In this document: positions 1-8,920 of the stretch, one piece after another | How positions within the stretch are numbered: position 1 is the first letter of the stretch | Layout of the letters: every line of letters begins with the position of its first letter | IMG/VR virus record: IMGVR_UViG_3300043571_000253 | Span: 1 to 20,973 of that record | Length of the DNA stretch: 20,973 nucleotides | Reading direction: 5' to 3' (one strand) | Origin: a virus | Position numbers and translations under genes: made by a program | Notes under the pieces: model-generated | Database searches by the model: none | What the model was told of the DNA's origin: nothing | What the model saw: the letters and a program-made list of their open reading frames with translations, nothing else

Positions 1-1061
<1,061 letters not shown>

Positions 1062-1062
<1 letters not shown>

Positions 1063-3119
1063 TGCCTATCTTACATAAAAGATCTTCTACCCCCGGAGCA
1101 ATTCCACCCGCAACAGGTTTAAGTCTTGGTGAATTGGCGATCAATACAACCGATGGAAAATTATATACTAAAAAAACAGACGATACAGTTGTGCAGCTCA
1201 CTTCAACTCCAGCGGGTCTTATATCGCCCGCAGTCAATGGAGTCTTATCCAGCCCCGATTGGTTACTTTGTAGTGGAACGGTAATTCCACAAAGTTCCTA
1301 TCCAGTCCTTGGAAATTTACTGGGCGCAAACTTTATATCTGCTACTGGAGCTATGCCAGCAACGGCCAACTGGCAAGCGGTTGCTTCAAGTGGTGAAAGT
1401 TCATATGTTGCAGTAGCATTAGGATCTCAATACTCAGCATTGTCAAGCGATAGCGGAAATGTTTGGATTTCTGGAGCATTACCTGTAGTGGCAAACTGGT
1501 CTACTGTAGCTTATAATAGTGGTTCAAACAATTATTTAGCTCTTGCAAATGGATCAAATGTGACAGCTAGATCAGTAGATGGCTCTGGTTGGGTTCAAGG
1601 TTTTGTACCTCCTACCAATCAATTTAATGCTATATCCAGTGGTGCATTGGGTGCTTGTGCAGTAACTCTAGGTCAATACTCTACAACAACAGTTGATGGA
1701 TTCTTGTGGTATCCCGGAGTATTGCCTTTCTCTGGAAACTGGACAGCAGTTGGGTATAATGGATCATTGTATTGTGCATTAGCATCTGGAACTAATAGTG
1801 GAGCTATTTCTACTAATGGATTGAGTTGGTCTGGTATTACGCTTCCCGTTACGGGAGACTGGCAAGCCGTTACAGGTACTGGTACAAATGGATTTTATGC
1901 TATCGCATCTAATGGCACGATAGCTGCTAACTCAGTAAACGGGACTAGTTGGACACAGCAAACTTTACCATTTTCTGGAAACTGGAGAGATATAGAATAT
2001 GGTGGATCAAGATTAGTTGCAGTTTGTGCTAATTCAGCATCCGGTGGATTATCTTATGATGGTGTGACTTGGTATAGAACCGCACTCCCAAGCTTTAGTA
2101 GCTGGTGGAGATTAGCTTGGAATGGCTCTATATTTGCGGCAGTTTCAAGTACGGCAAATTCAACACTTGCAGCGTCTTCTCCTGATGGTTCTGGGTGGAC
2201 CGCTAGAACTTTACCAGCGGGTACAGTTTGGGCTGGTATTGCTTGGAATGGTTCTACATTTTGTGCGGTTGGATTATCGCTTAACGTGGCAACATCTCCT
2301 GATGGGACTGGTTGGATTGGTAGATCAACTGTTCAAAATTCTGCTAAAAATGATTTAGCTTGGACAGGACAAAAATTTGTTGCGACTACTTTTGGAAATA
2401 GCTCTGTGTCAATTTCCCCGGAGGGTACTAGTTGGTTAACAACTACAACAGGCGCTACAAACACTTTTACTTTTATGGCTTCAGATGGAAATAAATATTG
2501 CGCCGTTTCAAATGGCGGTATGCACTCTTGGCTATCAAATGATGGAATATATTGGAGTGGCTATATGATGCCAACGGGCATAGCATGGTGTGCGATAAAT
2601 TGGAATGGTAGTCAATTTTTAGCAACAGCTCAAAACTCAGCTATTTATGCAACATCCCCAAATGGCTCAGTGTGGACATCTAGAACTTTTCCAGTGAGGA
2701 ATACATATCAAAATATTAATTGGAATGGATCTCAATATGCGGTCCCAGCCACACCTAGCAATTTTATAAATATATCAAGCGATGGAATAAATTGGACTAC
2801 AAATTATATGCCTAACTCTAGATCTTGGCATACACTTTCGTGGAATGGGTCATATTATATAGTCCCAGCTCTCTCATCAACACTTATAGCCGTTTCTAAA
2901 GATGGTGAATCATGGAGAGAGCTTAATATAGTTACTGCTGCTACTAACAGCTTGAGGTCTATTCTTTGGAACGGACAGTCTTTTATAGCTTTAAATTATG
3001 GTGGAGATAATTTTATAAAAATAACGCCAGACACTGGAAATTTTCGATTGCCAGCAATAACTACAAATATCGGCGGCTTCGCTTCTGGATATGTTGGCAA
3101 CTACTGGATTAAAACATAA
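1062..3119 (+). CDS. Putative receptor-binding or fibre protein: tail-collar domain split by 13 SxDGxxW repeats
   Basis: 685 residues. Residues 1-46 form a phage fibre-type N-terminal segment (LGELAINTTDGKLYTKK), shared with the next gene. Residues 66-91 resemble the start of a phage tail-collar domain (DWLLCSGTVIPQSSYPVLGNLLG), and residues 655-685 resemble its end (TPDTGNFRLP ... NYWIKT). Between them lie 13 SxDGxxW-type motifs, starting at residues 128, 171, 210, 250, 291, 331, 373, 412, 452, 492, 532, 572 and 612. Spacing is 39-43 residues, and most repeats also carry a WNGS-F strand. The pattern resembles Asp-box beta-propeller blades; the first motif (SSDSGNVW) has the full SxDxGxxW spacing. 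Likely role: a surface protein that binds glycans or host receptors. I see no catalytic residues, so I do not call a sialidase. The start follows a GGAGGA ribosome binding site. Confidence 0.75.
1443..2915 (+). repeat. Array of 13 degenerate 40-residue propeller-type repeats
   Basis: The protein repeat is about 120 bp per unit, with a conserved S-x-(D/N/E)-G-x-x-W core, usually followed six or seven residues later by LP or FP. The units are diverged at nucleotide level, so this is an old repeat rather than a recent tandem expansion. Confidence 0.85.
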
Positions 3120-4264
3120 TGGCAAATACAATATTATACAAAAGATCAAATCAAATTGGGAAAGTTCCAACTGTTAACGATTTACAGTCTGGTGAATTAG
3201 CTATAAATACTGCCGATGGAGCGTTATATTTAAATAATGCAACCATATCTACTCCAGTTGGAACTATACAGGCTGGATATTTAAATTATGACACTAATTG
3301 GATATTATGTGATGGAAAAAAATATTTAAAATTGCAATATCCATCTCTTAGTAATTTTTTAGAATATGAACTTTTTATAAATAATAATATAATAAATCCT
3401 ACCGACCCAATAGCTGTTCAGTCGGCTGCTTCTAGTCCAACTGCCATATGCGTTGGCACATATAGCAGTTTAATATACAGATCAACTGATGGTATAAATT
3501 GGAATAATATAATTCATCCAATAGGTGGTAGATGGAGTACTATGATTTGGACAGGATCTTTATTTTTTACAGGAAGTTCTGTTGGTAATTCTTATATGAC
3601 TTCGCCTGATGGTATAAATTGGACAGCAGGAACAATTCCCGGAGTAACTTCAATATGGGCTATTGCTTGGAATGGCACTATTTTTTGTATCTCTGGACTT
3701 AATACTAATATAGCAAATATTTCAACAAATGGAGTTAATTGGACACCTATTACAACTCCATTAACTTTAAGGTATAGAACTGCTATATCTCTTGGGAGTT
3801 TAATATTACTTTTTTCTGATACTGGAAACCAATACGTTGGGTCTATAGATGGAATAAATTGGATTGCATATACTTTTCCATCTACTTTAGTGGCTAGCAA
3901 TGCAGGTATCTATCCAGTTGTATTCAATAATACTATATATATATCTGGAACCGGAGGATCTGCAAAATCGACTGATGGAATTAATTGGACTATGATTAAT
4001 AATTTTAACGGCAGGTTTATATGTCCGGCTTCAAAATCTATGATATATTTTATATCAAATTTATCTGAAGTATTTTATTCAAAAGATGGTAATAATTGGA
4101 AAACTTTAGGCTATATTAGTGGATATGCAGGAGGAGGTGTTCCTGCGGCATTTGATAATATCCTATATACCGGCACTTTATTTACTTTAAATGCAAATAC
4201 AGACTATTTTTCTACCCCAAAATTAATATATGATAATTCTCAACCAAGATATATAAAAACATAA
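3119..4264 (+). CDS. Shorter paralogue: tail-collar domain split by six SxDGxxW repeats
   Basis: 381 residues, with the same plan as the preceding gene. The N-terminal segment shares KRS and GELAINTADGALY. A collar-like start (NWILCDGKKYLKLQYPSLSNF) lies at residues 60-80 and a collar-like end (YFSTPKL ... RYIKT) at 363-381. Between them are six motifs at residues 122, 162, 202, 242, 284 and 321; four of the six end in DGINW, so this array is more uniform than its neighbour's. One seven-bladed propeller, with the last blade closed by the collar strand, would fit. It begins at a TAATG stop-start overlap with no clear ribosome binding site, so translation probably depends on reinitiation. Base composition is more A+T-rich than in the upstream paralogue. 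Likely a receptor-binding or surface-decorating virion protein. Confidence 0.72.
   Translation: MANTILYKRSNQIGKVPTVNDLQSGELAINTADGALYLNNATISTPVGTIQAGYLNYDTNWILCDGKKYLKLQYPSLSNFLEYELFINNNIINPTDPIAVQSAASSPTAICVGTYSSLIYRSTDGINWNNIIHPIGGRWSTMIWTGSLFFTGSSVGNSYMTSPDGINWTAGTIPGVTSIWAIAWNGTIFCISGLNTNIANISTNGVNWTPITTPLTLRYRTAISLGSLILLFSDTGNQYVGSIDGINWIAYTFPSTLVASNAGIYPVVFNNTIYISGTGGSAKSTDGINWTMINNFNGRFICPASKSMIYFISNLSEVFYSKDGNNWKTLGYISGYAGGGVPAAFDNILYTGTLFTLNANTDYFSTPKLIYDNSQPRYIKT
3482..4099 (+). repeat. Array of six 40-residue propeller-type repeats
   Basis: Motif starts are spaced 40, 40, 40, 42 and 37 residues apart, with core sequences STDGINW, SPDGINW, STNGVNW, SIDGINW, STDGINW and SKDGNNW. Confidence 0.85.
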
Positions 4265-4638
4265 TGTTATCATTCCTACCACTATCAACAACTCCCTATT
4301 CATCATTAGCTTCTGGGCCAATTTACGCCTTTGCTTTATTTAGCTCAGACATAAATTTAGAACTCTCTCCAGCTATAAAATTCTACGAATCAATTCAATT
4401 TGATTGTTTTTCAAATTTTATTGGGAGTTTAGATCCGGTAAGGCAAATAAATGTGTATCATATTATGTATGTTACTACAAATAAAAATAATATTATGCTA
4501 CTGAATACGGAAGATCTTGAGATAGTTTACCACACTTCCGACTTCTATGCAGACTTTTATGTAGATACAGATTTAAACTATGAATTACCTCTAATTATGT
4601 CGGCAGATTTTATCTTAAATGCAATAGAGGAATATTAA
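4264..4638 (+). CDS. Unassigned 124-residue protein
   Basis: I do not recognise this protein. It has no signal peptide that I trust, no cysteine pair motif and no repeat. The N-terminus is Pro/Ser/Leu-rich (MLSFLPLSTTPYSSLAS) and the C-terminal half is acidic, with many Asp, Tyr and Asn residues. It begins at a TAATG overlap with the preceding fibre gene and lacks a clear ribosome binding site, so it is probably translationally coupled to that gene. Its stop is immediately followed by the next ATG. The position suggests a partner, chaperone or base for the fibre proteins, but nothing in the sequence shows this. Confidence 0.6.
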   Translation: MLSFLPLSTTPYSSLASGPIYAFALFSSDINLELSPAIKFYESIQFDCFSNFIGSLDPVRQINVYHIMYVTTNKNNIMLLNTEDLEIVYHTSDFYADFYVDTDLNYELPLIMSADFILNAIEEY

Positions 4639-4947
4639 ATGGCTTCTGAAATACATTATGGTGACGTTGGGGTTAATTTCAATATAACAGTCATGAATGA
4701 TACTGTTCCTCTGGATGTATCAAATGCCAATAATATTTATATAATTTTTGAAAAGCCAGACGGTACAGATGTGACAAAAACTGCAAGTCTTATCAATGAT
4801 GGTTCAGATGGCAATATTAGATATACAACAATTGTTGGCGATTTAAATCAAGTTGGTACATGGCAAATACAGGCTAAAGTAGATTTCGGGTCAAGCGTTT
4901 TTTCTACAGAGATTCAAAAATTTAAAGTGCAAAGGAATCTAATATAA
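4639..4947 (+). CDS. Small beta-rich (BppU N-terminal / Ig-like) virion protein
   Basis: 102 residues: one small beta-sandwich-like domain. The order GDVGVNFNITV, then PLDVSNANNIYIIFEKPDGTDV, then GDLNQVGTWQIQAKV, then FSTEIQKFKVQ matches the pattern of the N-terminal domain of siphophage baseplate upper proteins (BppU) and related Ig-like fibre-attachment domains. In those families this domain anchors appendages to the virion. Here it stands alone, between the fibre genes and the connector genes, which suits an adaptor for the upstream appendages. GAGG eight bases before the ATG supports the start. Family assignment is by pattern only. Confidence 0.6.
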   Translation: MASEIHYGDVGVNFNITVMNDTVPLDVSNANNIYIIFEKPDGTDVTKTASLINDGSDGNIRYTTIVGDLNQVGTWQIQAKVDFGSSVFSTEIQKFKVQRNLI

Positions 4948-7870: not shown

Positions 7871-8920
7871 ATGTCAAATCGTATTTTTTATGCTGTGCAA
7901 GCAGTTGGAATTCAACCAGACGACACTGGCACAATTAGCTGGATGCACGGTATGCAATCAGTTGGTATTACTACCAATTTTAACCTAGAACAAGTATTCG
8001 AACTTGGTCAATTAGCTCTTTTTCAGAATATTGAAAATATTGCAGAAATCGAAGTTACAACAGAAAGAGTTCTTGATGGAAATGCACTAACATATTTAAC
8101 TGCTGCTAGTTCTGGTAATAGTAGTATTGTTGCTGCTTCTAATCAAAAAGCTGGTGTTTATTTAATTATTTATCCAGATACAAATAGTGCAGCTACTGGC
8201 CTTGGATTCAATGGTCTTGTTTATTGCTCCGGTATGCGCCCAAGCAATATTACATATACGTTCCCAGTCGAAGGCAATTCTACAGAATCAGTAACATTTG
8301 TTGGAAATCAAAAGCAGTGGTCAGATAGCACTTTATTCCCAGCCTTTAATCCATCAACATGGGTTGGAACAGGAACGTATAATAATGGAGTTGTTTACTA
8401 CCCATCTGGCGCAGGATATTATAGCGGTATTAATGAACCTTCTTATGACTCTCCTCTTAATACTGTATTTCGTAGACAACACTTTACAACTGGTGTTGTT
8501 GCGTCAAAAGCAACAGTTATTCCAACTGAAGTTCTTAATGCTACAAATGGTGTAGTATCAAAAATTCAAACTATTACAGTTTCAGCAGATATGGGTCGTG
8601 AGAATATTTTTGAACTTGGTAAATTTTTACCATATGTTAAATATGCAAACTTCCCAATTGCTGTAACTTGTGATTTTGAAGTTATTTCTACAAGTGGCGA
8701 TAGAATGTCATCTAGTGGTGAAAATTATTCGCTATCTGATAGACAAATTATTGTAAACTTTAACAATGGTACAAAAACTCTATCAATTGATCTTGGAACA
8801 AAAAATAAACTTACAAGTGTAAACTATACTGGCGGTGATACTGGTGGGGGAAATGCTACTATGACTTTCTCATACCAAGGATTCAATGCCTTTAGAGTTC
8901 AAACTGGCGTAGTTTCTTAA
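7871..8920 (+). CDS. Major tail protein (tail tube), apparently two tandem tube domains
   Basis: 349 residues. The first half carries QSVGITTNFNLEQVFELGQL (residues 29-48), and the second half carries a matching QTITVSADMGRENIFELGKF (233-252). FELG falls at residues 43-46 and 247-250. In each half this is followed by a diverged matching segment: GVYLIIYP...FNGLVYCSGMRPSNITYTFP at 95-132, against RQIIVNFN...LGTKNKLTSVNYTGG at 291-322. Both halves end in a strand with T/S-F and G-F or Q-W. The FELG-containing hairpin is what I associate with phage tail tube proteins of environmental phages. A tandem duplicated tube domain is known from phage T5 pb6, which forms trimeric rings with pseudo-sixfold symmetry. 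Role: polymerises into the tail tube around the tape measure. Start set by GGAG. Confidence 0.75.
   Translation: MSNRIFYAVQAVGIQPDDTGTISWMHGMQSVGITTNFNLEQVFELGQLALFQNIENIAEIEVTTERVLDGNALTYLTAASSGNSSIVAASNQKAGVYLIIYPDTNSAATGLGFNGLVYCSGMRPSNITYTFPVEGNSTESVTFVGNQKQWSDSTLFPAFNPSTWVGTGTYNNGVVYYPSGAGYYSGINEPSYDSPLNTVFRRQHFTTGVVASKATVIPTEVLNATNGVVSKIQTITVSADMGRENIFELGKFLPYVKYANFPIAVTCDFEVISTSGDRMSSSGENYSLSDRQIIVNFNNGTKTLSIDLGTKNKLTSVNYTGGDTGGGNATMTFSYQGFNAFRVQTGVVS

Follow-up and report, generated by a model that had tools for sequence, protein, structure and literature searches.

Two adjacent ORFs in the DNA of this virus, A and B, each have one segment similar to phage tail collars near the N-terminus and another at the C-terminal end, with a run of repeats in between, which raises the question of whether a propeller array is nested in one loop of a collar domain, as was suggested in the initial annotation. 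The window (that is, the whole stretch of DNA analysed) is a virus record of 20,973 bases, the left part of which holds a collagen-like gene, A, B, small genes and a 2899-aa gene. The features considered are listed below.

1..1062, + strand: collagen-like tail gene, running in from the contig edge, with a stop/start overlap with A
1062-3119, + strand: ORF A, 685 aa
1062..1199, + strand: N-terminal structural tag of A, residues 1-46 (MPILHKRSS...GELAINTTDGKLYTKK)
1209..1337, + strand: collar first half of A, residues 50-92 (G-x-I ... DWLLCSG ... YPVLGNLLG; PF07484 13-39)
1338..3035, + strand: 14 blades of about 40 aa (SxDGxxW) in A, residues 93-658, from the repeat profile; probably two propellers
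3036..3116, + strand: collar second half of A, residues 659-685 (NFRLPAI ... YWIKT)
3119-4264, + strand: ORF B, 381 aa
3119..3238, + strand: N-terminal structural tag of B, residues 1-40; tail-fibre PHROGs match residues 1-51 (best E 4e-6)
3251..3364, + strand: collar first half of B, residues 45-82 (TPVGTI ... NWILCDG ... YPSLSNFLE; PF07484 13-34)
3365..4195, + strand: one predicted seven-bladed propeller in B, residues 83-359 (AF2 model and fold match)
4196..4261, + strand: collar second half of B, residues 360-381 (DYFSTPKL ... RYIKT; position and motif as in relatives)
Downstream of A, B and the small genes: 2899-aa gene, of tape-measure type by reading of the ORFs

Both ORFs are found in a tail-gene setting, with a collagen-like fibre gene upstream and the tape-measure-type gene downstream, and stop/start overlaps join four genes (391-1062, A, B and 4264-4638). 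The gene at 1..1062 matched PF01391 at 24.2 bits, which is below the cut-off of 27.2, and also matched tail-fibre PHROGs. The approximately 10 kb of the window that were compared were 100% identical in IMGVR_UViG_3300042402_005180, which starts at window position 259; beyond that one identical contig, no close relatives of A and B were found in IMG/VR. The gene at 1-1062 is rich in collagen-like Gly-x-Thr repeats and both contigs with this region end in or beside it (window positions 1 and 259), a pattern that points to an assembly break in these repeats. In addition, terminase PF03237 had no match in a related 77.7-kb contig, and a search of named phages with the gene at 7871-8920 gave no relative.

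The order of parts is the same in A and B: tag, collar first half, repeats and a short C-terminal end. The separate tag of about 45 residues, GELAINTxDGxLY, opens both proteins, which are 44% identical over the whole N-terminal segment, and it would attach them to the tail. This tag starts many phage structural proteins (378 IMG/VR stretches), and propeller repeats were absent from all loci fetched with it except the window's own contig, so that the tag by itself is uninformative. The collar-type starts and ends described at the outset proved exact in both coordinates and motifs (WLLCSG at residues 67-72, YPVL at 80-83, FRLP at 661-664 and a terminal YWIKT in A; WILCDG at 61-66, YPSL at 74-77, YFSTPKL at 363-369 and a terminal RYIKT in B), and the repeat profile placed all repeats between them as had been proposed. 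The units are about 40 aa long; A has 14 of them, and in B the profile detected 6, which follow a divergent one. After the YPxL segment, 577 residues precede F-x-x-P in A and 286 in B, and 21 and 14 residues follow it, respectively; ordinary collars from genomes of the Paludibacterium host's family have 12-16 residues, F-x-L-P-D, 85-189 residues and a last strand such as ALLACIKY.

Pfam registered the first half of the collar in both proteins. The Collar model PF07484 comprises 57 positions with a cut-off of 24 bits, which neither protein reached: A aligned over positions 13-39 only, with 20.5 bits (E 5e-4), and B over 13-34 only, with 14.2 bits (E 0.044); at the scale of one genome, A matched positions 12-39 with an E of 2.2e-6. 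No second collar was detected by Pfam in A or B, and an additional intact collar, which had been named as one of the cases that would speak against nesting, was absent from A, B and the six further family members scanned. With a profile of the family C-terminal ends, the C-end of A was its top-scoring window. The C-end of B has the F-x-x-P motif, yet it scored no higher than internal windows. The collar second half was clear in several relatives (L337, L344 and L131-L177). The PDB was searched by sequence with A and with a profile of collar first halves, and neither query gave a match.

It had also been proposed to check by structure prediction whether the repeats form closed propellers. For B, the AF2 model (15 aligned sequences) had pLDDT values of 80-96 over most of the propeller and 40-67 in the collar ends, and residues 83-359 aligned over the full length of 2z2o, a virginiamycin B lyase (270 residues at rmsd 3.2, Z 23.4). 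The repeats of B are thus predicted to form a complete closed ring of seven four-stranded blades, and the collar parts sit outside this range, as nesting requires. The Foldseek and VIA lists for B were uninformative on the collar because they were filled by the propeller. For A, the model was of low confidence and placed eight blades in one ring (see below).

Evidence for nesting also came from a homologue without the propeller. Protein SLPG_00038 of Salicola phage CGphi29 is a collar of the form DVMYAVEKPGADWEECDGAVYLQTTYPELYNVLGTGG..DPNTEFAVPLIEPL...AYIRI. The full-length relative L337 from Paludibacterium, with its propeller in place, matched this protein at residues 28-65 only (5e-6); with the propeller removed, 67 of 71 residues (94% of the query) matched at 2e-11. 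In a direct comparison of the two proteins, the N half alone gave 55.5 bits and the spliced sequence 63.9 bits, with the alignment running through the junction. The C-end of L337 (FVVPDIDAL...AYVRT) scored 35 against the Salicola tail, and the best of 256 internal decoy windows scored 17. The C-ends of A and B showed no direct resemblance to the Salicola tail, and the link goes via their relatives.

When the propeller was cut out of A, PF07484 matched positions 12-50 across the junction at 29.7 bits, compared with 24.0 and 27.4 bits for two decoy splices; the test in A alone is weak, since a repeat decoy likewise lengthened the Pfam match (27.4 bits). The spliced collar beat the decoy splice on Pfam in all seven of the proteins compared, with a margin of 0.2 (B) to 5 bits, and L337 rose from 25.5 bits intact to 33.9 bits spliced. 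The spliced L337 query also aligned across the junction with ordinary collars of related genomes. The spliced collar of A aligned with gp12-type collars (E 0.07), and that of B had no phage match at E 1. Among complete propeller ORFs, 17 combined a collar-like start with an F-x-[LVTI]-P end, 6 and 9 had one only and 134 had neither (Fisher 3e-12, a value that is inflated because the rows are related).

Scans of viral contigs and bacterial genomes revealed about 20 proteins with the layout of A and B. Tandem paralogues occur in IMG/VR contigs (three to four in L131-L138 and two in L177), L095 has an adjoining pair with 7 and 14 blades like the window, L101 also has 14 blades, and L106 and L161 also belong here. 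Single-propeller relatives have about seven blades. Prophages of Paludibacterium denitrificans carry four copies, of which L346 is cut short and L341 is frame-broken; the latter (C3 near 3097547) is split over two frames as ORFs of 86 and 299 aa, and other copies are intact. Caulobacter phage KSC gp039, annotated as a tail fibre, has a T7-fibre N-terminus (PF03906, E 1e-10), a collar-like start that gave no Pfam registration, a 637-residue insert and an FRVP...PYVKI end. Its relative, the Percy tail fibre, matched the B model, as did BFVD A0A6J7W9V9 (411 aa), a "Phage tail collar domain containing protein". The nearest propellers of named phages (Stenotrophomonas, Synechococcus B23 and Limnohabitans) were rejected as members, as the collar layout was absent where they were read. 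In Synechococcus phage B23 (L087), positions 4000-4839 hold a + strand open frame of 321 aa with SPDGxxW repeats, and the annotation gives instead two hypothetical genes on the opposite strand. Very long propeller-repeat ORFs without a recognisable collar start, with up to 28 units in 2054 aa, were observed in three large phage contigs (L102, L122 and L182).

Inserts in the family were 286-306 or 577-637 aa long and nothing was found between these classes (a printed value of 392 for L106 is an artefact of an early motif match). Such sizes fit the gain of whole propellers, one or two, and do not fit free growth blade by blade. In the nearest pairs of relatives, identity in the N end, propeller and C end was 95, 65 and 95% between L131b and L133c and 94, 44 and 64% between L337 and L344. 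In nine L131/L133/L177 proteins, the identities of the N and C ends co-varied (Mantel 0.54, p 0.006); the values were 0.31 (p 0.12) for N end and propeller and 0.46 (p 0.007) for propeller and C end. Judged from these sequences, kept ends with a varying propeller would fit a constant mount with a changing binding part. In L131-L138 and L177, propellers from one contig also tended to resemble each other more (61.4%) than those from different contigs (57.0%) and the collar ends did not, hinting at exchange between paralogues.

On the basis of these results, nesting of a propeller array in a collar domain is well supported at the family level by the uninterrupted homologue, the recurrence of the layout, inserts that are exactly one or two propellers long and the predicted closure in B. 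In the two proteins themselves the proposal held less completely, as the model of A did not resolve two seven-bladed rings and the C-terminal half of the collar in B was not distinct by sequence alone. According to another explanation, no collar is formed: the N segment would be what is left of a decayed collar, and F-x-x-P...IKT at the C-terminus would be the last propeller strand plus a short tail. The C-end of A overlaps a degenerate blade motif (ITPDTGNFRLP resembling SPDGxxWxxxLP), that of B was not significant, and repeat decoys can lengthen the Pfam match as noted. We nevertheless regard this explanation as quite improbable, because the intact Salicola collar has the same C-end and no propeller, the L337 end lies far above its decoys, the propeller of B is complete at residue 359 and does not need the last 22 residues, and collar-like starts and F-x-[LVTI]-P ends co-occur.

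The partition of the blades in A and the activity of the propellers also allow other readings. The model of A (three sequences; all strands, mean 55.6, pTM 0.45) closes eight blades, residues 94-414, in one ring, so that two rings of seven are unsupported by the model. The fourteen blades might accordingly be arranged as 8+6 or in another partition, with the ends maybe apart and the collar perhaps formed between the chains of a trimer. We consider such an arrangement somewhat unlikely, given the count of about seven in single-propeller relatives and of 14 in A, L095 and L101; moreover, the blades of A fall into two similarity groups around the middle, similarity being higher within halves than between them (6/2000 permutations), although L095_14 shows no such split. 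Two propellers thus remain the probable composition of A. It is less likely still that the propellers are not binding domains but enzymes, for instance glycan lyases or hydrolases. The best PDB folds for the B model do include virginiamycin B lyase and GH74 xyloglucanases, but identity is 9-15% and the fold is very common, and no enzyme family reached the Pfam cut-off in A or B.

The claim that this architecture had not been described before stood only in part. A split collar is not new, since the collar of T4 gp37 already consists of two segments (811-860 and 1016-1026) with a receptor-binding region (907-996) between them (PMC12724248). As proposed for A and B, a two-segment collar surrounds a receptor-binding part and the last 11 or so residues complete the collar; however, the insert of gp37 is an elongated trimeric tip after the 811-860 core, whereas the insert proposed for A and B is a closed propeller before F-x-L-P-D, with a short later loop. 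Ordinary PF07484 fibres (such as L353-L376, ending in ALLACIKY) and the short tail fibre gp12 of T4 have the collar segments proposed here, W-L-x-C-D-G, the YPxL helix, F-x-L-P-D and the final -IK- strand, but have 12-16 residues in the loop used by the propeller and 85-189 after F-x-L-P-D. Propellers are known in phage receptor-binding proteins, namely phi11 gp45 (five-bladed), phiKZ gp131C (seven-bladed) and PRD1 P2 (PMC4901313). In these the propeller is likewise proposed as the receptor-binding part of a tail or spike protein, but nesting in a collar is not described, and in phi11 a helical stem and a tower flank the propeller. KSC gp039 and the Percy tail fibre have a T7-type fibre N-terminus where A and B carry the GELAINT tag. 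What we found undescribed is that the insert is a propeller and that it occupies the loop preceding F-x-L-P-D, not the one that follows; no description of this was found in the literature searched, which included few subscription journals, although such proteins are present in public databases, as the BFVD entry above shows.

Taken together, A and B are likely to be tail-fibre tips with a two-segment collar that carries one or more propellers in its loop and probably binds a receptor. The collar would be built from two chain segments, G-x-I...W-L-x-C-D-G with the YPxL helix and then F-x-L-P with the last -Y-I-K-T strand, and the loop between the YPxL helix and F-x-L-P would be replaced by one propeller in B or fourteen blades in A. 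As a closed propeller begins and ends in one blade, its ends are adjacent and it can fit in a loop with the host fold unbroken; the collar would close in space, and A and B would form trimers. The stretch after F-x-L-P is 13-22 residues in this family compared with 85-189 in ordinary collar fibres. With this receptor-binding stretch cut so short, it is most likely the propeller that binds the receptor instead, which might be a surface glycan; the setting among tail genes, the relatives that are tail fibres and what collar tips are known to do would suggest the same. The layout probably serves to place receptor-binding propellers at the tip of a fibre. A more speculative idea, to which we give limited credence, is that the loop before F-x-L-P-D is a general propeller dock apart from the T4-type loop, and that tandem paralogues (A and B, or the three to four copies in L131-L138) swap propellers, keep locus-specific ends and may form mixed (hetero)trimers, so that one phage presents several propellers.

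Phages widely use collar-type fibre tips to display the parts that bind the host. A propeller has adjacent ends, and its blades are easily multiplied or swapped; if a second loop of the collar takes such propellers whole, it would be a modular site for changing host specificity, and this would, if true, account for a group of phage proteins that lack annotation. Because the collar of the Salicola homologue is uninterrupted, the insertion can be put to a direct test.
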